Translations under genes and position numbers: made by a program
Source: a virus
Virus record (IMG/VR): IMGVR_UViG_3300028840_002618
Location: 1-64,000 of that record
Reading direction: 5' to 3' (one strand)
Length of the DNA stretch: 64,000 bases
The notes under the pieces: generated by a model
Databases searched by the model: none
Seen by the model: only the letters and a program-made list of their open reading frames with translations
What the model was told of the DNA's origin: nothing
Shown: in pieces, positions 11,920 through 41,402 of the stretch
How positions within the stretch are numbered: position 1 is the stretch's first letter
Layout of the letters: each line of letters starts with the position of its first letter

Positions 11920-12638
11920 AGAGCACCTGCGGGAAAACGCCCCTTTGTGATCGGGAGGTCGGGAGCAGGAGTCAGGCGACACTGGCAGTATCGACCGGTG
12001 CAGCACAGGCGGTAGGATCTCGGGATCGCGTTGTGCTTGAGCCACGTGGATGCACGATAGACGCGACCGGAGAACGTGAGGCAGGTTGAGCAGTGATCGG
12101 TCGGTCCCATCGTCCAGATCATTTTCTGGTCTTGTCGGGCCAGGAGTTCTGCACGCGTGGCGACTTCGCTGTAGCGGTTGGTCCATTGGACCGCACGATT
12201 GTAGGCTTGGTCCAGGGCCAGCTTTTTCTCTCCATCCGCGTACATCACGTTCCGGACGGAGAGAAAAGAGGCAAAAGACGGTACGTGCATATAGTCTGTG
12301 CTGATCGCTTGGGCCAGCATCTGTTGACCTTCGGGAGGGAGGTCAAGGACGGTGGAGCCGCCCCGCTTTGCGCCTTCACTCCAGGCTTGGGTCAGGCCTT
12401 GATCGATGATCGAGTACATCGACTCGATGAAACCGGGCGTGTCAAAGATGTCCGTCACGTAGCCGCGTACCATCGCCCGAATCGCCTTGATGTAGGATCG
12501 CTCTCCTTTGGAGGGGGAACGGTCAGGCGGGTAGAAGGCAACCTCAGCCAGAGGAGCATGGACGATCACGCCCTCGGGAGGCAAGAGATCGTCGTCCGAT
12601 GGTTCAGGATGGGCAATGTACGGATACTTAGTCTCCAT
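11910..12638 (-). CDS. Mu F-like minor head (morphogenesis) protein
   Basis: 242 aa from ATG 12638, which overlaps the portal stop and has GGGAG upstream. The C-terminal part has the Cys/His pattern of Mu gpF-like head proteins: TDHCSTCLTFSGRVY, then CCTGRYCQCRL near the end. In such phages this protein follows the portal and is needed for head assembly, sometimes being injected. N-terminal two thirds helical. Confidence 0.8.
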   Translation of the reverse strand: METKYPYIAHPEPSDDDLLPPEGVIVHAPLAEVAFYPPDRSPSKGERSYIKAIRAMVRGYVTDIFDTPGFIESMYSIIDQGLTQAWSEGAKRGGSTVLDLPPEGQQMLAQAISTDYMHVPSFASFLSVRNVMYADGEKKLALDQAYNRAVQWTNRYSEVATRAELLARQDQKMIWTMGPTDHCSTCLTFSGRVYRASTWLKHNAIPRSYRLCCTGRYCQCRLTPAPDLPITKGRFPAGALCN

Positions 12639-14616
12639 TGTCTGCGACTCCCGCAAGGACGAATTGGGCAAACTGGTCTGGGGAGATGTAGCCCGATTGT
12701 AGGCGGGCGTGGGCTTGTTCATAGACCGAGATCACCATCTCCTCTAGGTCCGGTTCCTCTGGGGCCTCCTCTGTTTCATCCCCGCCCATTTCGTCGTCGT
12801 CGGGAGGGGTCTCCTCGTCGTCCGTGTCTGGAGGAGTGGGATCGTCCTCCTCCTCCGGTTCAGTGTAGAATAGGTCCAGGGAGGCGAGATCTGGGGCGTT
12901 GTTGATCCCGAGGGCTTGGAGAGTCACGCGCCAGAGTTCTGCAGCGAGACCGGCAGCGGCCTTGGGCTCGATGATGCCACCGGAGACCAGGGGCGTGAGC
13001 ATCTGGGAAGCGAAAGAGCCGATGGACGATGCGACGTCCGGAAAGTCCGAGAGGGAGAACGAGTCTATGGAGATCTGGGCGACTCGTTGGGGTTCTGGGA
13101 TCGTGACCGGGGCATACTTGTCTGCCAGGGTCAGGACGGCGTAGGCCAGGGTCTCCATCGTCTCGATCCAGAGATCCTGGTATCGCTCGAAAACCATCGC
13201 CTGGGCCTTGTCCATCTCCAGAGCCGTCGCCCATCGGGACGTGTCCAGGCCGGCAGAGGTCGGGAATAGGCCCGAGCCTAACAGGGCCATCCAGGAAAAC
13301 TGCTCGTTGTCGGCCTTGGCGTCGGACGCGCCGGTACGCATGGGTAGCTCTTTGGTGTTTGATGCTTTGTTCTCGACGTGCCAGGACCCGGCAGCGCCAG
13401 GCGGGTTTCCGTCCAGATAGTTGGACCGGGAGAGGGTAGAGGCTATCGTGTTGATCACAGAGTCTACGGCACGGGAGCCGCCTTCGACCTGGGTACGGCG
13501 CACGAACTGGGCGATGGCGAGAGCCACGCCCAGGCGCGACTCTGCGAACTTTTTGTGTCCTCGGATCCAGGGAGCGGAGGTTGTGGAGAGAGGCCAGCCG
13601 AGTGGGTCGGACTCCTCCTTCTGGTTATGGGCGATGTGGAGGATACAGACGTTTGTGTCGGCCTTGGTCTGGTCGGCGCGCTTGGCGTCGGCAGGGACTT
13701 TCTTGGAGGTCTGGAGGAGGGTCCAGCGCTCCTCGAGATCGGGAGCAAGAGAGGTCTCCCAGGATGGGTAGTAGTAGGTCTCTGAGCCGGTGCCGGTCGT
13801 GTTGTCGCTCCAGGTACGTTTCCAGAACCAGATGTCGGCCTTGTCGTCTGGGTTGAATATGGGGGACATCTCGGACTGTTCGATCACTCGGAGCGTCGTG
13901 CGCCCGGCGTTCTCTCCGGAGGTCGCGGTGAATAGGGCCAGGAACCGGTTGCCTTTGATCAGGAGCCAGTCAGACAAGCGGTGGATCGCCTCTCTGCCCA
14001 GGACGGATCTGTTGCGTCGGGAGAGGTAGAACTCGTCCCACCATTTTTGGGCTTTGGTGGTCGGGAGAGTGGCGGTCACGTTGTCGCCTAATCCCCATCC
14101 GGTCCAGAGCCAGATGGACCACTGGTAGAGTGGGGAATATCGCCAGAGTCGAACGGATTGCTTGACCGCCCGTTCGCGTTCGCTGGTCAGGGAGGAGGAC
14201 GAGCCGTAAGCTGCGAGTTGGTCCCACCCGAGTTGTGTCGTGAGATCGAGTAGCAGGGCCTCGTCTACCCCGCCCTCCTTGAGGGAAGCCAGCGCTTCGG
14301 CGGGAGCAAGGGAGAGACCGGACTGGTCCAGGTGTAGGCCCAGGACGGCGATCGAGTCCTTGAGGGCGCGGATCGTGGTCTCGGACTCTCCCAGGAGACG
14401 GTCACGCTCTTGTGACATAACAAGAAGTTCTTTTGCCATGTCCTCATGTTGTCCCGCAAGCAGCGTTTTCTCTAGGCGATGTTGCTCCCGAATGTCGTCT
14501 ATCAAGTCTGCGTATTTTCCGCAGATCTCGACAGTGGCACGATGATCGTCATGTTGCTTGGGAAAAACGAGATTATGGATCTTTTCTTTCCAAGTCAGGG
14601 GCTGAGTGCTTGGCAT
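12628..14616 (-). CDS. Portal protein
   Basis: 662 aa. AAGGAGATCCCC precedes the ATG. The central region (about 160-540) has the features of Mu gp29-like portals: WSIWLWTGWGLG, WWDEFYLSRRNRSVLG, a helical crown, and long helices. An unusual N-terminal coiled coil (residues about 35-110, heptads around EKTLLAGQHEDMAKELL) is added, and the C-terminus is a very acidic Glu/Asp/Pro tail (about 585-640). It forms the dodecameric channel at one capsid vertex and is located between TerL and MuF-like genes, as expected. The N-terminal coil could dock the neighbouring 179-aa or membrane-segment protein, but this is a guess. Confidence 0.85.
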   Translation of the reverse strand: MPSTQPLTWKEKIHNLVFPKQHDDHRATVEICGKYADLIDDIREQHRLEKTLLAGQHEDMAKELLVMSQERDRLLGESETTIRALKDSIAVLGLHLDQSGLSLAPAEALASLKEGGVDEALLLDLTTQLGWDQLAAYGSSSSLTSERERAVKQSVRLWRYSPLYQWSIWLWTGWGLGDNVTATLPTTKAQKWWDEFYLSRRNRSVLGREAIHRLSDWLLIKGNRFLALFTATSGENAGRTTLRVIEQSEMSPIFNPDDKADIWFWKRTWSDNTTGTGSETYYYPSWETSLAPDLEERWTLLQTSKKVPADAKRADQTKADTNVCILHIAHNQKEESDPLGWPLSTTSAPWIRGHKKFAESRLGVALAIAQFVRRTQVEGGSRAVDSVINTIASTLSRSNYLDGNPPGAAGSWHVENKASNTKELPMRTGASDAKADNEQFSWMALLGSGLFPTSAGLDTSRWATALEMDKAQAMVFERYQDLWIETMETLAYAVLTLADKYAPVTIPEPQRVAQISIDSFSLSDFPDVASSIGSFASQMLTPLVSGGIIEPKAAAGLAAELWRVTLQALGINNAPDLASLDLFYTEPEEEDDPTPPDTDDEETPPDDDEMGGDETEEAPEEPDLEEMVISVYEQAHARLQSGYISPDQFAQFVLAGVADNGD

Positions 14617-15289: not shown

Positions 15290-16609
15290 CTAGTAGGATG
15301 GTCCTATTGCTGTTGATACGTCGACAATCTGGCTTTTGGGTTGGGGAGAGGTCAGGAACGAGACGATGTAACGCAGGGCATCTAGCATGTGGTATGCCTC
15401 TTTGTTCTCGATCACGTTGGTGAACTCTCCCGTTCGCTTGTTCTGTTTTCTCGCGTAGGCTCCGATCTCGGAGAGGAGAGCTACGCAGCAGTCATGGATG
15501 ACGATACGGCCCTCTCGCAAGAGTTGTTGGACGCGGTCAATCTGCGTCCAGACCTCTGTGATCGGCGGCTCCTGGAGAGGGATGCCGGCTCCCGTAAAAT
15601 CTACGCGCTGTTGCCGTTCTGAGGGACCGCCGCCGACCCAGGCATAGATGGGCTCGGCCCGGTTGGTCGGCACGCCCTTGGGACTGTAGCCAGATGCCTC
15701 CAGGATCTGGGCGACGTGTTTGGGAGTGGTTACGCCGAAAGGCTGTTCATACTCCCGGTAGACGTGGAGCGTTGCGCCGAGGGCGTCCCAGGCCAGCCAG
15801 ACCGCGCCTATCTGCGCGCCGAAGGGATCTATGCCGACGAATCGAGGCCACATCTGGGGGATGGGGATCGCCTCGATCTTGTGCTTTTCGTCGTCGTACG
15901 CGGTATAGATTGCTCCCTCTGGGGATGCCCACTGCCCCAGATAGAGACGCTTGTAGCGGTGCCCGGTCATGGAGGCGAGACGCCCCAATCGCTGGATGCC
16001 GGCCTCTGTCATCTCGCCCGTTGTCTGGTCAAACAGGGCCGGGTTGTCGCGGTGGGTTGTGTCGTAACGGGTCAGGGAGGGAGTGTCACCCTTGGACCGC
16101 TGCATGATCCAGTGAGTCGGCGGGCCGGGGTTACAGTCCCCGACGAGTTGGGTGTAGGGCATCGTGGCGCCGCGTCCGGTGACCATTCGGATCAGATACT
16201 CCCAGTCTGAGACGGTCAGTTCCTCTGCCTGGACGACATAGATTATGTCTCGCTCACCGGATAGGGTCTTGCCGGGATTGTCTAGGCCGCCGAGCCAGAT
16301 ACGGGCACCGTTGGGATAGTCGTACCATTGGGGGATCTTGCCGCCGTAAGGCTCGACGTAGGGCGCGTAGGGCTCTAGGATGTCTCTTGTAAAAGTGCGA
16401 ATGACTGTGCCGTGTATGTCGGACTTGACCTTGCGGAGGATCGAGATCTGCGCGCCCGGGTACTTTGTGGCACACATGTGGATCTTGTAGAGGAGTGCGA
16501 GCGTCTTGCCAGTGTCGGCGGGTCCTGCTAGCATCACCTCGGGATCTCGGCATAGCATTCCTCTCTTGACGTTCCCGTAGAATGAGTACGGGAGGGAGAT
16601 CGTCGGCAT
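15290..16609 (-). CDS. terL: Terminase large subunit
   Basis: 439 aa, typical length. Packaging motor ATPase and nuclease. Walker A GPADTGKT at residues 29-36; Walker B region IIYVVQAEEL at about 122-131 with the catalytic Glu; coupling motif VGDCNPGPPTHW at about 156-167; nuclease domain starting at FVGIDP (Asp 261) with a late Asp in HMLDALRY. It sits directly before the portal and downstream of TerS. One base pattern to note: the usual Asp of Walker B is replaced by Gln/Ala before the Glu-Glu pair. Clear assignment. Confidence 0.95.
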   Translation of the reverse strand: MPTISLPYSFYGNVKRGMLCRDPEVMLAGPADTGKTLALLYKIHMCATKYPGAQISILRKVKSDIHGTVIRTFTRDILEPYAPYVEPYGGKIPQWYDYPNGARIWLGGLDNPGKTLSGERDIIYVVQAEELTVSDWEYLIRMVTGRGATMPYTQLVGDCNPGPPTHWIMQRSKGDTPSLTRYDTTHRDNPALFDQTTGEMTEAGIQRLGRLASMTGHRYKRLYLGQWASPEGAIYTAYDDEKHKIEAIPIPQMWPRFVGIDPFGAQIGAVWLAWDALGATLHVYREYEQPFGVTTPKHVAQILEASGYSPKGVPTNRAEPIYAWVGGGPSERQQRVDFTGAGIPLQEPPITEVWTQIDRVQQLLREGRIVIHDCCVALLSEIGAYARKQNKRTGEFTNVIENKEAYHMLDALRYIVSFLTSPQPKSQIVDVSTAIGPSY

Positions 16610-17122: not shown

Positions 17123-17415
17123 TTTGAGGTCTCCTTGTCGATTATGGCATAGCCTATCAGGAGGAATGGGATCGCCAGGAGATAGGGCCAGGACTCGATT
17201 GCAAGTTCCATTTGAGTCCAGGCGGGATGGAGCGCCCACCGGATCAGGAATCCGTAGACCAGGATGCAGACAGAGCAGATGAACAGGATCACTCCAAGTG
17301 TAAGCATTGGTAGATACCTTTTGTCTGAGGAGGTAAGAGAAACACCGTCAACATCAATGCGGCTAAGAAAGATCTGGCTGTTGGTGATCTGCACTCTTGG
17401 ATCTTTTTCGTTCAT
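17119..17415 (-). CDS. 98-aa two-pass membrane protein
   Basis: ATG at 17415 overlaps the TerS stop (TGATG), with GGAGGATTTTT upstream. Two hydrophobic segments at about 37-58 (TLGVILFICSVCILVYGFLI) and 75-90 (WPYLLAIPFLLIGYAI). A holin-like or other membrane role is possible, but the location in the terminase cluster is unusual for a holin. Confidence 0.65.
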   Translation of the reverse strand: MNEKDPRVQITNSQIFLSRIDVDGVSLTSSDKRYLPMLTLGVILFICSVCILVYGFLIRWALHPAWTQMELAIESWPYLLAIPFLLIGYAIIDKETSK

Positions 17416-17996
17416 CAAAAATCCTCCGGTTCGACGTTGCCCGAGAGTCTGACGTCAAAGGACCCATCCTCCCCCGCCCCTTGGACTGTATGGAGGTCTC
17501 CGAGGCCGGTCGACTGGCGCTGTAGCTTGGAGGTCAGTTCCAGGGCACGCAACAGGGTTGACTCTTTGACGCCGACTGTGATGATCTCGCGCTCAGGCAT
17601 ACCGTCTTTGGCAGGGATAACGCGTCGCTCTGTCTTGACAAAGTTCTGGAGTTGATCCAGGGTAGAGTCAACAACGGCACGGAGCTTTTCGGCCATCTCA
17701 TAGTCTGCCTGGAGCACGGCGGCGCGCCGTTCTGCCCAGAGAGCTTGTTCTGCCTCGCTTCGCTCGACCTCTTGTTGGGCGAATGCCTCTGCTAGTCGGG
17801 CTTGCCATGAGTGGGACTTTGACCAGCCTCTGATAGTTTGCTCGCTTTTTGTCGGGGGGATCTCTGGGCCTTCTGGGGCGTTTGTATAGGAGCGCCAGAG
17901 ATCTCGGAGCTTGGCCCCCGGTCCCATTCTGTACAGGTCCATTAGAGCACGATGCGCTCTGCTCGTCTCGCCTTTTCGTCGTTCAAGGGGTTCCAT
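17415..17996 (-). CDS. terS: Terminase small subunit
   Basis: 193 aa. N-terminal half contains a helix-turn-helix-like region (about 15-75, including KSEQTIRGWSKSHSWQARL) followed by a long helix with Glu/Gln/Ala content (about 70-110), the layout of small terminase subunits: DNA binding then oligomerisation. Located in front of TerL, with three small genes between. It overlaps the end of the mutase gene. Confidence is from plan and position rather than strong motif identity. Confidence 0.7.
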   Translation of the reverse strand: MEPLERRKGETSRAHRALMDLYRMGPGAKLRDLWRSYTNAPEGPEIPPTKSEQTIRGWSKSHSWQARLAEAFAQQEVERSEAEQALWAERRAAVLQADYEMAEKLRAVVDSTLDQLQNFVKTERRVIPAKDGMPEREIITVGVKESTLLRALELTSKLQRQSTGLGDLHTVQGAGEDGSFDVRLSGNVEPEDF

Positions 17997-19110
17997 AGTG
18001 ATCCACCATTACCTTTGCTATGTTCAGGGCGCGATAGATAGCCTCGTCCATGTCGATGTAGGCATAGCCGCCGAGCCGTCCACAGAACGTGACGTCTGGA
18101 TCGTGGTTGTTCGCGTGGTCCAGGTATTGCTGGTATAGGTGCTGGTTACGGACGGTTGGAACAGGGTACTCAAAACGGGTTGGATCGTCGGGAGAGTAGG
18201 GATACTCGCGGGAGACGTATGTCCAACGCGTCGTGGCTCTTTTCTCTGGGGGGAGGAGCCAGCGCCACTCAGTGGTACGGATGTGTGCGCCTCCAGAGGG
18301 CAGCGGGTTATTGACCTGCACAGCGCCCTGGTAAGAGTCTACGCCGTCAGGGAGCAGGAGGGGATTATGCAGCCGCCGTTGTCCCCTGTACTCGAGTCGG
18401 CCCAGAGAGTAGTCGTAGAACTCGTCAATGGGACCGGTGTAGACCATGTGATCAAAAGACCAGTCCTCTTTGTTCATGAACTGTTGATAGGAGGCACCCA
18501 GGACACAGGGGACTCCCTCTAGCATTTTGTGGACCATTTCATGGTAGCCGTTGGAGGGGATTCCGCGCCACTTCCGATCGACAAATGCGCGCTTTTCGTG
18601 CGGGTCGTCTCGGAGCGTGTAGCGGGAGCCGATACGCGGCAGTAGATCGGTCGCAGGGATGCCCCATTGCTTGAGATTGTAGGAGGCGATGAACAGATCA
18701 TAGACTGGACGTGGGAGGTACTGTAGCCAGTACTCCTGTAGGGAGAGAGGTTCCCGATCTGAGGTCAGGAGATAGGCCAGTGGCGGCTCATGGCCAGGAG
18801 CCAGGGCCTCTACTGTGTACCGGTGCAGAGGCCAGGGATAGGTATTATCACCGAGGCGGGTCCGGATATAGTAGTCTACTTGCTGGAAGGTTGTGAAGCG
18901 GTGGCAGAACTGCCATACCTCTGGGTAGGAGGTCCGGAAGTAGTGCGGTCCTCCCAGGTGATAGGGTATGCCGGTAGTGGCGTCGACGTCGTCGGCACAG
19001 TGACCGCCCACGTATGGGAGCCGGTCAAGGACAAGACAGGGTATGTTGTGGTCAGTGAGCACTCGGGCCACTGTTGCGCCGGTCAGCCCAGCGCCGACAA
19101 TCAGGATCAT
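17983..19110 (-). CDS. glf: UDP-galactopyranose mutase
   Basis: 375 aa, the usual length. Flavoenzyme converting UDP-galactopyranose to UDP-galactofuranose. Visible family features: FAD-binding GAGLTG at residues 6-11; GGHCADD at about 35-41; HLGGPHYFRTS at 51-61 (the flavin-side His loop); YNLKQWG at 144-150 (family YxxKQWG); CGRLGGYAYIDMDEAI near the C-terminus (family GR-x(3)-Y-x-Y-x-DMD). All expected active-site elements are present, so it is probably functional. It stands next to two glycosyltransferases and a ParB-like gene in one operon, implying that galactofuranose is supplied for a glycan added to phage DNA or virion proteins. Why a phage would make its own UDP-Galf is not known. 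Confidence 0.9.
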   Translation of the reverse strand: MILIVGAGLTGATVARVLTDHNIPCLVLDRLPYVGGHCADDVDATTGIPYHLGGPHYFRTSYPEVWQFCHRFTTFQQVDYYIRTRLGDNTYPWPLHRYTVEALAPGHEPPLAYLLTSDREPLSLQEYWLQYLPRPVYDLFIASYNLKQWGIPATDLLPRIGSRYTLRDDPHEKRAFVDRKWRGIPSNGYHEMVHKMLEGVPCVLGASYQQFMNKEDWSFDHMVYTGPIDEFYDYSLGRLEYRGQRRLHNPLLLPDGVDSYQGAVQVNNPLPSGGAHIRTTEWRWLLPPEKRATTRWTYVSREYPYSPDDPTRFEYPVPTVRNQHLYQQYLDHANNHDPDVTFCGRLGGYAYIDMDEAIYRALNIAKVMVDHYGTP

Positions 19111-19112
19111 GA

Positions 19113-19883
19113 CTAGGTCCCTGGTATGTTGATACGGACGAACGTGTTTAGGATGTTATTGCCTTTGGCTCCCTTACCACCCGCTGAGCCACCGGGACGG
19201 ATGACCTTCGGGCCGTATCTGGCTATGAGTCGGTCTATCGCGTCCAGTTCTCGCTTCATGGTGCGCATGGAGACTTGGCCTCCAGTGCCTTGCGCGTGCC
19301 GGTGATGGTAGTGGTACTTGTTGGCCCGTAGAGTGAACCGGTGACGGATGATCATACGGAGCCAAAAGTCATAGTCCTCCTTGAGGTCCAGGTACTCGTC
19401 AAAGCGGAGATCGTGATCGAGATGTCCGTGGAACGGGCCAAGGATGGGAGACAGGAGAGAGAACGGGCGGTAGGTGTAGTGGCCTAAAGGGTCCTGGTTC
19501 TGTTGAACGCCCCACATCTTGACGCCTAGTTGGTCGGCAAGGCAAAAGTGATGCTCGACAAATGCGCGCATGTGAGTGGGGTCCATTGGGATGTGCTCTC
19601 CGGACTCATAGTAGCACATGCGGGTTATGTCGTCATCCAGGATCAAGATCCAGGGACAGCCGGTCTCAGTGGGAGCGCGGTCCAGGATCGCGTTCTGCTT
19701 GCGGCACAGGTTTCCGTCGAGGTCGTCAGGGATCGAGATGATACGACCGGGATAGTTGGCCTCATAGTCTGCGGCCTGGGACTCGGGCACCCAGATGTAG
19801 GCAAAGGGAAACGCCTTGATCGTGGTCACGGAGTCGGGCCGCTTGTAGGATTTTATGGCTACGTGGATCTGAGAGTCTATCAT
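19113..19883 (-). CDS. GT-A glycosyltransferase, TAGT-like (copy 1)
   Basis: 256 aa. A GT-A fold is indicated by an N-terminal strand pattern IHVAIKSYKRPDS, then IPDDLDGNLCRKQNAILD, then the metal-binding ILDDDITR at residues 81-88. The same pattern occurs in the neighbouring gene, and both resemble the TET-associated glycosyltransferase (TAGT) group known from phage DNA hypermodification clusters. The two copies share about the same length and motif spacing, so they arose by duplication. The acceptor could be a hydroxylated base; no TET or hydroxymethylase gene is seen in this window, so the acceptor is unresolved. Protein glycosylation is an alternative. Confidence 0.65.
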   Translation of the reverse strand: MIDSQIHVAIKSYKRPDSVTTIKAFPFAYIWVPESQAADYEANYPGRIISIPDDLDGNLCRKQNAILDRAPTETGCPWILILDDDITRMCYYESGEHIPMDPTHMRAFVEHHFCLADQLGVKMWGVQQNQDPLGHYTYRPFSLLSPILGPFHGHLDHDLRFDEYLDLKEDYDFWLRMIIRHRFTLRANKYHYHHRHAQGTGGQVSMRTMKRELDAIDRLIARYGPKVIRPGGSAGGKGAKGNNILNTFVRINIPGT

Positions 19884-19886
19884 GGG

Positions 19887-20645
19887 TCACTGTCCCGGGA
19901 TGACGGTAGAGTTGATCGCGCCGTACCTGCCGGCGCGTTTGGGATCACGGAATATGGCAGGGCCGAATTGAGAGACCATACGCAGATGATCGGCACGCGC
20001 CAGGGCGAGAGTCTTGTCTATACCGCCCTCTACGTTGGCATCGCCTTTCTCGATTATGGCCTGATGATGGGCGAGAACGACCTTGTTGAACCGGAGCGTA
20101 CGCCGGTAGGTGTAGATCTGGAGGAGCCACATGGCAATGTCGTCCATTGTACGGATCTCCTCGTCAAAGCGGAGAGAGTGGGAGAGATGACCGTACAGTG
20201 GGCCGTAGATGGGCTTGAGCAGGGAGAACGGCGTATAGGTCTGGTAGTAGAGTGGATCGTCATGGGTTCGCACACCCCAGAGATGGACGCCTAGCTCCTC
20301 AGCCAGTTGGAAGCAGTGGCAGATCCAGAGCCGGAGGTCTGAGGGGGACAGGTCGTACTTTTCGCCGCCCTCATAGAGAGAGACGCGGGTAACGTCATCG
20401 TCCAGCATCAGGATCCAGGGAGAGGGGCAAAGATCGAGAACGGCGTTACGCTTGCGTGCGCAGGAGCCGTCCAGTTCGTCAGGGATGGACCGGACAGAGG
20501 AGCCATAGGAGGAGCGGTAGTCGGCCTCCTGAGACTCGCAGACCCAGATCGTGGCAAAAGGGAAAACGTCAAGAGTCTTGACGGACTTGGGCCGCCCGTA
20601 TGAGATTATGGCGACGTGGATCTTGCCCGAGTCAATCAGATCCAT
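19887..20645 (-). CDS. GT-A glycosyltransferase, TAGT-like (copy 2)
   Basis: 252 aa from ATG 20645, with AAGGAGGC upstream; the eight extra codons of the longer frame lack a site. Motifs parallel copy 1: VAIISYGRPKSVKT, FPFATIWVCESQEADY, SIPDELDG, ARKRNAVLD and LMLDDDVTR (Asp 82-84, metal and sugar-nucleotide binding). Overlaps the ParB-like stop, showing one transcript. Likely transfers a sugar, perhaps galactofuranose provided by the mutase two genes downstream. Substrate and acceptor are inferred only. Confidence 0.65.
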   Translation of the reverse strand: MDLIDSGKIHVAIISYGRPKSVKTLDVFPFATIWVCESQEADYRSSYGSSVRSIPDELDGSCARKRNAVLDLCPSPWILMLDDDVTRVSLYEGGEKYDLSPSDLRLWICHCFQLAEELGVHLWGVRTHDDPLYYQTYTPFSLLKPIYGPLYGHLSHSLRFDEEIRTMDDIAMWLLQIYTYRRTLRFNKVVLAHHQAIIEKGDANVEGGIDKTLALARADHLRMVSQFGPAIFRDPKRAGRYGAINSTVIPGQ

Positions 20646-21453
20646 TCTTGGCAGCCTCCTTGGCAGCATCGATCACCGCGAACAGTCTGGAGGCAGGGAG
20701 GACGCGCCCGGTCCCCTTCTGCTTGATCGTCTTGCCTTTGACCGGGGCTGTGTAGACCTTTTCCAGGGAGAACAGTTCCTCGGCAACGTTCCAGTCTAGC
20801 TGGTTGTCAAAGTAGATCACGAGGTAGTCATGACGCTCCAGGAGCTCGGGAGAGATCTCCAGTTCAGGCGCGCCGGGATCGTCCTCATCGGGCTCTGGGT
20901 CTGGGTTCAGTTCTGCCAGGAGCGCATCGGCCTCCTCTGGGGAGAGTGAGACCGGCAGGACGTCGTCGTCTACAGCCTGTTGGATCAGCTTGGCGTATCC
21001 ATCCGCGTCCCAGACCTGGGCCTGTTGTTCTGGAGTGAGACCGGTCATGGTCAAGTTGTTGGCGTCGATGGCATAAGCACGGGCCAGGGCGCGGGAGGCG
21101 GCATCTGTGCCGATGACCAGGGGCATCGCCCATGGGCCGTTGTCTGGTTCTCGGGCGAGGCCGCGAGGGAGGTCTACGCCGCGCTTCTCTAGCTCGTCCA
21201 GGGCCTCGATCCGCCCGTTGCCCGACTTGATCGCACCGGAGAGGCCGACCGTTACAGGCGTGAGGTTCTTGTCAAACTTGGGGAGATCTTGGAATCCGTG
21301 ATCCCTGATCGACCGTTCGACCTTGGGGAGGTCGTGCCGCTTGGGATTGTCCACCCAGAGGTAACGCATCGCGTCTCTTACCCTGATCCATATCAGAGTC
21401 GGGGCATCGTTCATCTCTAGCGTGCTCTGGTCAAGGGTTGGCAGATCGGACAA
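20632..21453 (-). CDS. ParB-like nuclease-fold protein of modification cluster
   Basis: 273 aa. The start was set at TTG 21453, four codons after the promoter-distal hairpin and 5 nt from AGGAGGT; frames further upstream would run through the promoter at 21547-21575. The motif IKSGNGRIEAL matches the GxxRxxA element of ParB/Srx N-terminal domains, here of the type associated with DNA methylases and hypermodification genes. An AIDANNLTMTG segment follows, also common in those proteins. An acidic linker (Asp/Glu/Pro) leads to the C-terminal part. It opens the operon that continues into the two glycosyltransferases, the mutase and the terminase. Confidence 0.7.
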   Translation of the reverse strand: MSDLPTLDQSTLEMNDAPTLIWIRVRDAMRYLWVDNPKRHDLPKVERSIRDHGFQDLPKFDKNLTPVTVGLSGAIKSGNGRIEALDELEKRGVDLPRGLAREPDNGPWAMPLVIGTDAASRALARAYAIDANNLTMTGLTPEQQAQVWDADGYAKLIQQAVDDDVLPVSLSPEEADALLAELNPDPEPDEDDPGAPELEISPELLERHDYLVIYFDNQLDWNVAEELFSLEKVYTAPVKGKTIKQKGTGRVLPASRLFAVIDAAKEAAKNGSD

Positions 21454-21546: not shown

Positions 21547-21575
21547 ATTGTACCATGAGCCGTGATCGTTGTCAA
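21547..21575 (-). promoter_or_regulatory. Minus-strand promoter of late head operon
   Basis: TTGACA (21575-21570), 17-bp spacer, TACAAT (21552-21547) on the minus strand. It is divergent from the plus-strand promoter at 21616 with about 40 bp between the -35 boxes. Confidence 0.8.
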
Positions 21576-21615
21576 GGGGAATTATGGGAATTGTAGGAAT
21601 TGTCCGAGAAAACGC
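21576..21615. promoter_or_regulatory. Putative operator between divergent promoters (AATT repeats)
   Basis: The gap between the two -35 boxes holds GGGGAATTATGGGAATTGT and then GGAATTGTCC: three GGAATT-type repeats at about 10-bp spacing, i.e. one per helical turn. The second divergent promoter pair at 34531-34563 has similar repeats. A regulator binding here could switch early and late transcription. Confidence 0.45.
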
Positions 21616-21665
21616 TTGACAACGGAGTGGGATTATGGTACTATGTTGGTGACAGTGAGTTGATT
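21616..21665 (+). promoter_or_regulatory. Early promoter P1 with conserved downstream element
   Basis: TTGACA (21616-21621), 17 bp, TACTAT (21639-21644), then GACAGTGAGTTGATT (21651-21665) at the start of the transcript. First of the repeated plus-strand promoters; drives 21692-23222. Confidence 0.85.
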
Positions 21666-22384: not shown

Positions 22385-22981
22385 ATGGGAACGTACCGCA
22401 AGTGGGTAGCTCTGCACGGAAACAAGGATCGTTACAGTCGTATCATCAGCGTCGGCGCTGAGAACGTCGAGGCGGGCGTGGAGGAGATCAAGAGACAGCT
22501 CAACCGGCCTGGACGGTATGGGGCGTTTAGGGTCTGGCAGGAGAGTGGTTTCATGGTCCTGGACGAGAATGGGATCATCTCGACGGAGAAGGAGCGGATA
22601 GGGGACGGTGAGCCGATGCGCTACCGGTACTATCTGGTCAACCGCCCTCCCTCGATAGGCTGTCAGCCAAAGGGGGACGTTGCTCGGGAGGTCTGGAGTC
22701 CGAGACGCAAGATGTCTGCACAGGGACGGTTGGTACATGGTTGGGTAGAGTATGACCAGCCGCTGAGCGCATACAACATCTGGAGCTATGAGCTCTTTCC
22801 CGCAAGCATTCAGGAACAGGCCCAAATGGTGTTTGTGGAGGGAGGCGAGTACAATTCCTCCCGGCACGAATACTGGTGCAGCCAGAACCTGAAGGATCTC
22901 AAGAGACTGTACAAAGAGATGGACGACCAGAAGGCTTGGGCCGCGCTGGTCTTGCTGGGAGAGATCGACCAGCCTTTCTAG
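22385..22981 (+). CDS. Early protein with YYLVNRPP motif, 198 aa
   Basis: TAGGAGGTCATC precedes the ATG. Segment RYRYYLVNRPPSIGCQPKGD (about 80-99) resembles a small domain found in mobile-element polyvalent proteins, in which the same Y-x(2)-NRPP core occurs. The C-terminal half has a helical region with YWCSQNLKDLKRLYKEMDD. No catalytic site is visible. Role unknown; may interact with host factors. Confidence 0.65.
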   Translation: MGTYRKWVALHGNKDRYSRIISVGAENVEAGVEEIKRQLNRPGRYGAFRVWQESGFMVLDENGIISTEKERIGDGEPMRYRYYLVNRPPSIGCQPKGDVAREVWSPRRKMSAQGRLVHGWVEYDQPLSAYNIWSYELFPASIQEQAQMVFVEGGEYNSSRHEYWCSQNLKDLKRLYKEMDDQKAWAALVLLGEIDQPF

Positions 22982-33156: not shown

Positions 33157-33304
33157 TCCTTCTAACATCCTCCTCGATCGCATTGATCAAGTCAAGGACG
33201 TGATCACGCAACACCTCGAGTTCATCGCGCACAATGAGCAGATCCTTGTCCATCTGGCTATGCACGGAACTGGAGGCCTTGATAGCATCTGACAATCTGC
33301 TCAT
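33116..33304 (-). CDS. 62-aa coiled-coil protein between ParM and RHH genes
   Basis: Heptad-rich helix (LEVLRDHVLDLINAIEEDV). Its ATG overlaps the ParM-like stop and its end overlaps the RHH start. Could modulate the filament or bridge the two partners. Confidence 0.65.
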   Translation of the reverse strand: MSRLSDAIKASSSVHSQMDKDLLIVRDELEVLRDHVLDLINAIEEDVRRNEHNQDAIPEHGD

Positions 33305-34302
33305 TAGATCTCTCCTTGTTTCTGGAGGTAGAGTCCGTAGCGCAGATAGCCTTGCACATTGGCAAAAACCGGATCGCGTGGCATGAAGACCTGCCGGTGT
33401 TGGTCAAAGTGATTGACGACAAACTCACCAATGAGATGCGCCCCACCACCGGTGATCAGGATCTTGTCCAGTGCCGCCCCACCGTCCCAGTGCTGTGTCG
33501 CCGCGCTGATGATCTCTCGGGACATTGGTTCCGAGACCTCCAGGATTGTCTGGGAGATGTCATACGCTTCGCCGTGATAGGGGACTTGCCCGAGCTGGAT
33601 GTCCTTGACCAGATCGTGGTCTCGCCGCTCCAGTTGGGGGAACAAGTCAGAGACACGGGCCGAGATTGCGCGCACGATGTCCCAACAGCCGGTGGGGATC
33701 GAGGTCGTGCCGTAGGACACCTCTTGTCCCCTGGAGGTCGTCAAGACGTTCGTTGTGTGAGATCCAATGTCAAGTATGCCAACGGTCCCGGTCAGCCACG
33801 CGGGATCGACTGGATCTCCGTTGCCATCAAAGGCCATCGAGCAGAGAGATCCAAAGGGCTGTGGGATCACGTATGCCTTGACCTCGTAGGTGTGGGTACG
33901 GGTCACCTCTGGGTACTCTCTGGTCACTCGATGCGTGCCCGAGAGGAGGTCTTGCACCTCTGTTTTGTCGTCAAAGTAGGCCAACGGGAGGCCAGAGATC
34001 AACGTGATGCTCTCTGAGGAAGCGCGAGAGATCTCCGTCAGGGAGGCATAGAAAAGAGACTTGTACTGGTCAGAGTAGATCCAGCGTCGATCCTCTTGTC
34101 GGTCAATGAAACGGGATTGCGTGATCGCCGCCTCTCCGACGACTGTTCTCCCTACCCCGTTAGAGATGACGATCGCGTTGTTGGTGCCGAGGCCAAAGCG
34201 CGGGAGGTCTGGAGAGCCGGTCACGCTTGGAAAAGTGAGCTGCCCATCGCCTTCCGAGTTGATCTTTACTGCTCCGTATCCGATGTCAAGTCCTGCAAGC
34301 AT
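33304..34302 (-). CDS. Actin-like ParM/Alp partition ATPase
   Basis: 332 aa. Actin/Hsp70 superfamily features: phosphate-1 LDIGYGAVK at residues 5-13; phosphate-2 LDIGSHTTN at 177-185; adenosine motif ITGGGAHLI near 286; a FPS segment typical of ParM-like N-terminal domains. Forms ATP-dependent filaments in plasmid segregation and in some phages that move or centre DNA. With the adjacent RHH gene it forms a partition-like pair. Confidence 0.85.
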   Translation of the reverse strand: MLAGLDIGYGAVKINSEGDGQLTFPSVTGSPDLPRFGLGTNNAIVISNGVGRTVVGEAAITQSRFIDRQEDRRWIYSDQYKSLFYASLTEISRASSESITLISGLPLAYFDDKTEVQDLLSGTHRVTREYPEVTRTHTYEVKAYVIPQPFGSLCSMAFDGNGDPVDPAWLTGTVGILDIGSHTTNVLTTSRGQEVSYGTTSIPTGCWDIVRAISARVSDLFPQLERRDHDLVKDIQLGQVPYHGEAYDISQTILEVSEPMSREIISAATQHWDGGAALDKILITGGGAHLIGEFVVNHFDQHRQVFMPRDPVFANVQGYLRYGLYLQKQGEI

Positions 34303-39586: not shown

Positions 39587-40366
39587 ATGCCTCTGATTGA
39601 ACCAACGTTGTTTGGTACAAGGAACAAAGTACAGATTGCCATAGAGAGATTGCGAACATTTTGCCCGCCAGAAGGGTATTACCTCGCGTTCTCAGGAGGT
39701 AAGGACTCAGTAACAATCAAGGCCTTGGCTGATATGGCAGAAATAAAGTATGACGCTCACTACAACGTTACCACAATAGACCCTCCCGAGGTCACAAGGT
39801 TCATCCGAGATCAACATCCCGATGTTGTCTGGGAGAGACCCAAAAGGTCCATGTTCCGTTTGATCATCATGAAACAGTGGCCTCCTCTGAGGCAATGGCG
39901 ATATTGTTGTGAGAGATTAAAAGAGAGAGGAGGAAAAGGACGCAAAGTACTAACCGGTATCAGGCACCAGGAGAGCGGGCAGAGAAAAAACCGGCAGATG
40001 GTAGAGACGTGTTACAGTGATCCCACCAAGACATTCATCCACCCAATTATTGACTGGTCAGACAGAGATGTTTGGGAGTTCATCAAAACAGAGGATCTCC
40101 CCTACTGCTCATTGTATGATGAAGGATTCCATAGGGTCGGCTGTATCTTGTGTCCGTATGAAGGTAACGCACAGAATATCCAAAAGCAGATCGAACGGTG
40201 GCCTCAATTTGTAAAAGCGTACATTAGGACATTTGATCGGCTGATCAAGTACAGAGATAGTCTAGGAAAAGAGACCACCTTCAAAACTGGACAAGAGCTT
40301 TTTGACTGGTGGATCGATAGAGGACACCGTAAAAAAGATCCTCAGGAGGCGCGACTTTTTGAGTGA
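39587..40366 (+). CDS. PAPS reductase-like PP-loop protein
   Basis: 259 aa. PP-loop AFSGGKDSVTIKAL near 36-49, CCERLKE, GIRHQESGQRKNRQM and a C-terminal GCILCPYEG Cys pair. Similar to phosphoadenosine-phosphosulfate reductase family members on phages and to DndC-type sulfur donors. It uses more A/T-ending codons (aaa, ata, aga) than neighbours, suggesting recent acquisition. Role may be sulfur transfer to DNA or tRNA, or nucleotide-level sulfate metabolism; substrate unknown. Confidence 0.8.
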   Translation: MPLIEPTLFGTRNKVQIAIERLRTFCPPEGYYLAFSGGKDSVTIKALADMAEIKYDAHYNVTTIDPPEVTRFIRDQHPDVVWERPKRSMFRLIIMKQWPPLRQWRYCCERLKERGGKGRKVLTGIRHQESGQRKNRQMVETCYSDPTKTFIHPIIDWSDRDVWEFIKTEDLPYCSLYDEGFHRVGCILCPYEGNAQNIQKQIERWPQFVKAYIRTFDRLIKYRDSLGKETTFKTGQELFDWWIDRGHRKKDPQEARLFE

Positions 40367-40547
40367 AAAACATCAACCGTTAAACCAGGAGGATCTAAAG
40401 AAGGTTGAACAGGCCCTCAAGCGTCTGAGGGGCATCACCAGAGGTCTCAGGTATGGAGGCTATGGGCAGGAGTATCAACTTGCCCAAGATGCCTTGGAGA
40501 GTTGGGAGAGGATCAAGCCGTTAGTGAAACAGCCGAGGCTGTTGTGA
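40359..40547 (+). CDS. 62-aa helical protein, TTG start
   Basis: TTG at 40359 with CAGGAGGC 10 nt upstream; an earlier frame overlaps the PAPS reductase-like gene heavily. Helical, charged (EDLKKVEQALKRLRGIT). Unknown. Confidence 0.6.
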   Translation: MSEKHQPLNQEDLKKVEQALKRLRGITRGLRYGGYGQEYQLAQDALESWERIKPLVKQPRLL

Positions 40548-40556
40548 GAGGGGACC

Positions 40557-41402
40557 ATGAATAAACTGAAAGTCTTATGGACGTGTCCCATTTGCAGGAG
40601 GGAGACAGAGAGCAGTGTCAGTATAGAGGAGGCCAATCAACAGATCGCCGCAGAATGCCCAGAATGTCGTCATGTGATGATCTACGGAGAGTGTACGCAC
40701 ATCTTGGGGGTTGTCAGGGAGAACATCACCCAGAGTTCCAAGTCCGAGGTCTGGCTGACTCCTCCGTCAGTCTGGGAGCCAGCACGCGCCCTGATGGGAG
40801 GGACCATAGACCTCGACCCTTGTGCAGAGAGCCTGGGGAGTTGTACAGGATACTCCAGTGAGACCCCTAGCGGAACAGAGTTTGACTGTGACATTGGAGA
40901 CGGTCGGACATGTGAGGAGTGCCAGTACGGGCCATATGGGGAGGGGGATCGATGGAACGTCCCAGCGCGCATCCACTGGACCAAGGCCGATGACGCTCTG
41001 AGCCAGCCTACCTGGATGGTAGGAGATGAACCGATAGACCTGTTCATGAATCCACCGTACAACAAGAGCAGAATCCAGAACAAGTTTGTTGATCGGTTTC
41101 TGCACGAGTTGTCTCTGGGGAGGATAGGCAGAGCGGTGATCTTGTTGGCATCGAGGACGGACACAAAGTGGTACCAGAAGCTGTACAGGTATCCTCGGTG
41201 CCATGTGAGAGGTCGGCTAAAATTCCTCAAGCCTGGACCCAACGGGCCAGTGGAGAGAGGTCCTGCCACGTTCCCCAGTGTGATCTTTGGAGTGGGGATC
41301 GATCCGTCTCTATTCTGGGGAGCATACCACCATCTCGGCGGGATCTACATACCCTATGTCAGGGGACGGTACGCAGATGGGCAGTTGGTCTGGTCATCAT
41401 GA
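40557..41402 (+). CDS. Dam-like phage N6-adenine methyltransferase
   Basis: 281 aa. N-terminal CPIC and CPEC form a zinc ribbon; then the PF05869-like methyltransferase with WLTPPSVWEPARAL, IDLDPCAES and the catalytic MNPPYNKS near residue 163. Its family methylates GATC or related sites in several phages; the strong GATC content of this genome fits but does not prove that. GAGAGGGGACC precedes the ATG. Confidence 0.85.
   Translation: MNKLKVLWTCPICRRETESSVSIEEANQQIAAECPECRHVMIYGECTHILGVVRENITQSSKSEVWLTPPSVWEPARALMGGTIDLDPCAESLGSCTGYSSETPSGTEFDCDIGDGRTCEECQYGPYGEGDRWNVPARIHWTKADDALSQPTWMVGDEPIDLFMNPPYNKSRIQNKFVDRFLHELSLGRIGRAVILLASRTDTKWYQKLYRYPRCHVRGRLKFLKPGPNGPVERGPATFPSVIFGVGIDPSLFWGAYHHLGGIYIPYVRGRYADGQLVWSS

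Follow-up and report, generated by a model that had tools for sequence, protein, structure and literature searches.

We describe an operon in a 64,000-nucleotide stretch of viral DNA (positions 1 to 64,000 of IMG/VR record IMGVR_UViG_3300028840_002618, hereafter the window) that encodes a ParB-like protein, two TAGT-like glycosyltransferases (TAGT-A and TAGT-B) and a UDP-galactopyranose mutase (UGM) ahead of the terminase genes. The operon is best explained as a ParB-guided DNA glycosylation cassette using a UGM-derived furanose, a reading to which we give a probability of about 0.55. It draws on features of the sequence, namely gene content, coupling of the genes, conservation of the slot before the terminase, exchange of the ParB partner within that slot, specificity of the ParB tail and the conserved active sites of UGM and TAGT-B. 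Galactofuranosyl DNA, if this reading is correct, would be a DNA modification that we have not found described. The preliminary description of this DNA likewise knew of none, and searches of the accessible literature returned no paper on galactofuranosyl DNA, on galactofuranose with hydroxymethylcytosine (hmC), on ParB-linked TAGTs, or on ParB alongside the glycosyltransferases of phage DNA hypermodification.

The source record is a 64,290-base contig with linear ends and may be incomplete. All four genes proposed earlier to form one operon ahead of the terminase were recovered on the minus strand, in the following arrangement.

21547–21575, minus strand: strong sigma-70-like promoter, TTGACA-N17-TACAAT, TG-extended, 11/12 consensus matches, upstream of the operon
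20632–21453, minus strand: ParB-like protein, 273 amino acids (phrog_620, E 1.2e-6), with a TTG start behind AGGAGG
19887–20669, minus strand: TAGT-A, GT-A glycosyltransferase paralogue (PF20691, E 2.5e-6, 28.0 bits)
19113–19883, minus strand: TAGT-B, GT-A glycosyltransferase (PF20691, E 7.8e-12, 46.0 bits)
17983–19110, minus strand: UDP-galactopyranose mutase (GLF/UGM), 375 amino acids (PF03275, E 2.7e-36)
17415–17996, minus strand: terminase small subunit, TerS (phrog_6299, E 5.2e-10)
15290–16609, minus strand: terminase large subunit, TerL (phrog_2, E 2.5e-22)
12628–14616, minus strand: portal protein (phrog_10963, E 4.6e-13)

The junctions are tight: ParB and TAGT-A overlap by 14 nt, TAGT-A and TAGT-B are separated by 3 nt and TAGT-B and UGM by 2 nt, and UGM overlaps TerS by 14 nt. 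The genes from the ParB-like protein to TerS are therefore read as one translationally coupled operon. The likely start of TAGT-A is the ATG at 20645, behind AAGGAGG, and three small genes lie between TerS and TerL. The same metagenome contains a 22.9-kb contig that repeats the region, with 99.95% identity across 18.6 kb; no close DNA relative was found in the phage collection.

The pairing of ParB with TAGT is conserved in relatives. A scan of viral contigs (IMG/VR) with a TAGT alignment returned 78 loci, which fall into 34 groups at 90% identity; the scan patterns were drawn from ParB-linked TAGTs, so the resulting percentages cannot stand for TAGTs in general. A strict script places ParB immediately before TAGT, in the same orientation, in 30 of the 33 groups that could be tested, and each of these ParBs carries the same C-terminal domain; two of the three exceptions are a problem of open reading frame (ORF) calling, with ParB upstream in the gene maps. 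TerL, as recognized by a limited hidden Markov model (HMM), is within 2.6 kb in 20 of 29; several groups lacking an HMM-recognized TerL have a large ORF without a label at that position, and Pfam adds terminase families among the neighbors. The ParB/TAGT overlap in relatives is usually 4–23 nt. Cultured phages have the same arrangement, with the orders ParB–TAGT–small gene–TerL in Streptococcus phage Javan291, ParB–TAGT–TerS–TerL–portal in Lactobacillus gasseri phage phi jlb1, and ParB–TAGT–two small genes–TerL–portal, next to cos, in L. delbrueckii phage c5.

In Microbacterium cluster EC phages (Quhwah, Selwyn23), ParB and TAGT are followed directly by a UDP-glucose dehydrogenase at the right genome end; these genomes are circularly permuted, and their left end holds TerS and the terminase (PMC7302621). 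Their ParB, TAGT and adjoining UDP-sugar enzyme are thus upstream of TerS as in the window, but the dehydrogenase stands in place of UGM, the single TAGT is from a distant branch, and about 2 kb of small genes precede TerS. A GTDB scan yielded one locus only, on an Emcibacter metagenome-assembled genome contig (L179, 7346–9236), with genes for ParB, a TAGT (51% identity to TAGT-B) and a TerS-like protein. This nearest cellular-labelled relative is probably a prophage or phage contig.

The position held by TAGT is occupied by other enzymes in related phages. Because a mixed alignment of ParBs diverged too strongly for scanning, a narrower one of the ParB N-domain was used. The 80 nearest ParB N-domains among viral contigs form 61 clusters, 58 of which have a readable partner, with methylases assigned by exemplar searches. 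Among these 58 are 27 N4/N6-methylases, two C5-methylases and one D12-methylase, nine DpdA-like proteins (phrog_887), six Mom proteins (PF25680), two PAPS-reductase-like proteins, three class-1 and three class-2 TAGTs, and five ABC-ATPases, so that 53 of the 58 partners are known or putative nucleic-acid modifiers. In Javan476, a ParB N-domain with 71% identity to the Javan291 domain is fused to a DNA methylase, and its terminase neighbors are those of Javan291, a small gene and then TerL. Such ParB–DNA methylase fusions share with the window the ParB N-domain family and the slot before TerS–TerL, whereas the window has a separate TAGT. Because the slot elsewhere contains DNA methylases, Mom and DpdA-like proteins, DNA is the likely acceptor of TAGT, and the earlier suggestion of DNA glycosylation gains to that extent from the comparison.

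The ParB-like protein itself consists of an N-terminal ParB/Srx domain with a GNGR motif and a C-terminal domain, as seen in an alignment with 22 TAGT-linked ParBs. Its place in the ParB/Srx superfamily is given by the sequence and fold of the N-domain; in a model of moderate quality (pLDDT 76.5), the top Foldseek match is pNOB8 ParB-N (E 5.5e-4). An HMM of the C-terminal domain, built from TAGT-locus ParBs, matches all class-1 TAGT loci of the slot census and no other locus. ParBs with other partners carry other tails, including cysteine-rich, zinc-ribbon-like ones with C5-methylase and DpdA-like partners. There is a precedent for such a pairing in the DpdA–DpdB 7-deazaguanine system, in which the ParB-like ATPase DpdB is the partner of the base-exchanging DpdA (PMC12839542). 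A ParB-like protein thus serves a DNA base-modifying enzyme there too, but by base exchange and not sugar transfer; DpdA-like proteins occur in the ParB slot of related phages only, and the window has no TGT-family match that would place it among Dpd systems. Taken together, the exchange of partners, the TAGT-specific tail and the DpdB–DpdA precedent lead us to read the slot as ParB plus an exchangeable modifier.

On this reading, one odd operon becomes a testable rule, that a ParB ahead of a phage terminase marks a DNA-modification slot, and unrecognized slot partners are therefore candidate DNA-modifying enzymes. An ABC-ATPase-like protein of about 225 amino acids (phrog_11143) occupies the slot with its own ParB tail at L105 (4498–5175) and also at L117, L148, L156 and L165, and is a candidate for a new type of DNA modification. 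A second class of TAGT, with an N-terminal P-loop (kinase-like) fusion and again its own ParB tail, is found in the slot at L136 (4735–6156) and L175 (4726–6117).

Both glycosyltransferases of the window are TAGT-like, as first described: they exceed the curated PF20691 cut-off of 27.5 bits, TAGT-A only just, and both match phrog_842. The TAGT name reportedly dates from a 2013 paper. The two are not equivalent. Across 38 aligned TAGTs, D83–D85, E169-D170-Y171, G201-G202, R207 and E212 vary little or not at all. TAGT-B has every conserved residue of this alignment intact. TAGT-A keeps the DDD motif, D170 and G202, but E169 is replaced by D, Y171 by I, G201 by K, R207 by K and E212 by A, such that KEDYD reads MDDIA and the GG..R..E motif is degraded. 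The conserved residues of the catalytic region are therefore complete in TAGT-B only, and equality of the two enzymes was rejected on this loss of motifs in TAGT-A. In the tree, TAGT-A is the sister of TAGT-B (support 86/89) with a branch of 1.42 compared with 0.45; the sister position and threefold longer branch indicate that the gene was duplicated within this lineage and that TAGT-A then changed fast.

The AlphaFold model of TAGT-B (pLDDT 87.5) has a GT-A fold, with the DDD motif present in both TAGT copies. This fold rests on a predicted model, as the TAGT profile matches no PDB sequence. Foldseek matches of the model include WrtF, TarP, TarS and B4GALNT1, and by VIA polysaccharide and peptide transferases alike are matched, with Z up to 14.4 over about 200 residues; the fold therefore does not name the acceptor. 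It could be that galactofuranose is put on the terminase, portal, capsid or tail and not on DNA. The operon abuts terminase and head genes, and the TAGT-B model matches protein GalNAc-transferases besides polysaccharide enzymes at Z of about 13–14. The TAGT-like domain of animal GREB1 is also reported to act on protein. We nevertheless consider protein glycosylation distinctly unlikely: the slot partner is swapped for DNA methylases, Mom and DpdA-like proteins while ParB stays, ParB is linked to TAGT by a TAGT-specific tail, and the T-even TAGT acts on a sugar on DNA.

That T-even enzyme is a close point of comparison for DNA glycosylation. PF20691 and phrog_842 are both named after the T-even beta-glucosyl-HMC-alpha-glucosyltransferase, and PF20691 takes in the T2/T6 enzyme by which glucosyl-hmC in DNA receives a second glucose (PMC13216743). 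The window TAGTs share with this phage DNA sugar transferase both families and the GT-A fold. The T-even enzyme, however, adds glucose to a sugar that hmC already carries, and it occurs together with an alpha- or beta-glycosyltransferase and a dCMP hydroxymethylase, whereas the window has a ParB partner and UGM and was found to have no other DNA glycosyltransferase and no hydroxymethylase.

UGM supplies furanose donors. The window UGM aligns over its full length with solved UGMs (phmmer to 3gf4, E 4e-43), and the motifs GAGLTG, GPH.F.T, YNLKQWG, the loop Arg, GRLEYR, IRTTE, REYPY, EYPVP and GRLGGYAYIDMD align with Klebsiella-type UGM. The GLF domain and the FAD, His, Trp, Arg and Tyr motifs are kept, and this intact active site points to UDP-galactofuranose as the donor. 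A similar association is seen in Lactobacillus phage ATCCB, where a thymidylate synthase, a full-length homologue of T4 DNA beta-glucosyltransferase (E 4e-43) and UGM are encoded in a row (L005, 5031–8086). ATCCB, independently of the window, thus places UGM in one operon with a homologue of a DNA glycosyltransferase, but the transferase is of GT-B type, a thymidylate-synthase-family enzyme is present, there is no ParB–TAGT pair and the genes are not beside the terminase. The ATCCB cluster is a second candidate for furanosyl DNA, probably on a hydroxymethylated base. The intact UGM and the ATCCB arrangement together make the galactofuranose donor proposed earlier more plausible.

The preliminary description named a base-hydroxylating enzyme as the missing piece. 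The search for such an enzyme was negative: when nearly all ORFs of the window were scanned with Pfam, in a record that may be incomplete, no thymidylate synthase, TET/JBP or 2-oxoglutarate oxygenase was returned. As far as these scans reach, the operon falls outside TET/JBP–TAGT hypermodification, in which a TET/JBP dioxygenase is encoded with TAGT, and outside T-even hmC glucosylation, there being no match to Thymidylat_synt or T4-Gluco-transf among the window ORFs. The relatives, among them the complete genomes of Javan291 and Selwyn23, are similar, and a hydroxylase need not be a missing piece at all. No hydroxylase is present among the first 25 of 36 Pfam families listed for Javan291 (42 proteins), among all 14 families of Selwyn23 (54 proteins), in the annotations of phi jlb1 and c5, or among the 25 families listed for 77 neighbors of TAGTs. 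Judged by these gene contents, the cassette seems to work without a recognized base hydroxylase.

On a classical route, the substrate of the TAGTs would be a hydroxymethylated or hydroxylated base, and the enzyme that makes this base would be encoded outside the recovered part of the genome or come from an unrecognized family. The linear contig leaves room for such a gene, and the ATCCB thymidylate synthase adjoins its glycosyltransferase and UGM. The characterized phage DNA sugars (T4, T2/T6, RB69), as far as known, use a hydroxyl acceptor, which is made by thymidylate-synthase-type or TET enzymes (PMC13390438). The arabinosyl-hydroxycytosine phages (RB69, NP) also resemble the proposed system in having a DNA sugar other than glucose, added as one or two residues by sequential transferases (PMC13390438); they differ in obtaining 5-hydroxycytosine from a thymidylate synthase homologue and in having no ParB and no UGM described. 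We consider the classical route unlikely given the absence of a hydroxylase from the scans, censuses and annotations above. In addition, Mom, DpdA and methylases act on canonical bases, and Mom and DpdA are found in the same slot elsewhere.

The absence of a hydroxylase from cultured phages with the same cassette suggests instead that the sugar is transferred to an unhydroxylated base, and direct transfer of this kind is possible by analogy with the slot partners that act on canonical bases. In its most specific form, ParB-loaded TAGT-B would put galactofuranose on a canonical base, for example on an exocyclic amino group, in one step and with no hydroxylation, as a member of a general cassette of ParB plus exchangeable modifier ahead of phage terminases; we hold this version tentatively and regard it as rather doubtful.

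Several observations weigh against a ParB-guided DNA glycosylation cassette. No recognized source of a hydroxylated base was found, and the modeled TAGT folds match protein and polysaccharide transferases too. The window ParB-like protein is divergent, with no match to Pfam ParB_N, which is matched in its relatives only. UGM was found beside a class-1 TAGT only here and on the near-identical contig of the same metagenome, which was also the sole match in a single-protein UGM scan of viral contigs, and among the scanned TAGT loci the combination of two TAGTs with UGM is confined to this phage. Other phage UGMs (Aeromonas, Erwinia, rhizobial) adjoin genes with no obvious role in DNA modification, and UGM by itself therefore need not mean DNA modification. 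In T4-like Erwinia and Aeromonas phages, UGM lies between motA and an unrecognized protein of about 350 amino acids (L014, 6995–9120; L013, 6995–10266); for Erwinia phage FBB1, the 353-residue protein after UGM has no Pfam or PDB match and is not claimed as a glycosyltransferase. UGM is also found in faecal phage contigs L006–L010, which carry no annotation.

These distributions bear on whether UGM belongs to the cassette at all. ParB–TAGT could modify DNA with host glucose by itself, UGM being separate cargo that changes the host envelope, as in superinfection exclusion. ParB–TAGT normally occurs without UGM, and many phage UGMs (T4-like, rhizobial phages) have no recognizable DNA glycosyltransferase adjacent. 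However, UGM is set between TAGT-B, at a 2-nt gap, and TerS, at a 14-nt overlap, within one operon, and sugar-nucleotide enzymes adjoin a DNA glycosyltransferase in ATCCB and TAGT in the Microbacterium phages, which leaves the cargo explanation with little likelihood in our view.

For the ParB-guided DNA glycosylation cassette, we infer the docking, the sugar used, DNA as acceptor, the timing and the protective effect as follows. The ParB-like protein would load on phage DNA, and its C-terminal domain would dock TAGT, with other partners using other tails. UGM would convert host UDP-galactopyranose to UDP-galactofuranose, and TAGT-B would move galactofuranose onto phage DNA bases late in infection, shortly before packaging. 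TAGT-A, as a diverged duplicate, might add a second sugar or act as a partner subunit. The sugar on phage DNA could protect it from restriction or CRISPR.

Other features of the window surround the operon. Promoter-like sites in the region number seven against 2.5 expected. At 21547–21644, two good divergent promoter-like sites stand back to back; the minus-strand site leads into the ParB operon, and the plus-strand site (TTGACA-17-TACTAT) faces early-type genes. Divergent from the operon, at 22385–22981 on the plus strand, is a gene for a protein with a DarA_C (defence against restriction A) domain. An actin-like ParM/ALP protein is encoded at 33304–34302 on the minus strand amid a plus-strand replication region. 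At 39587–41402, a PAPS-reductase-domain protein is followed directly by a Dam-like adenine methylase; as PAPS-reductase-like proteins also occur in the ParB slot (L171, L176), a second modification pathway in the window is possible.

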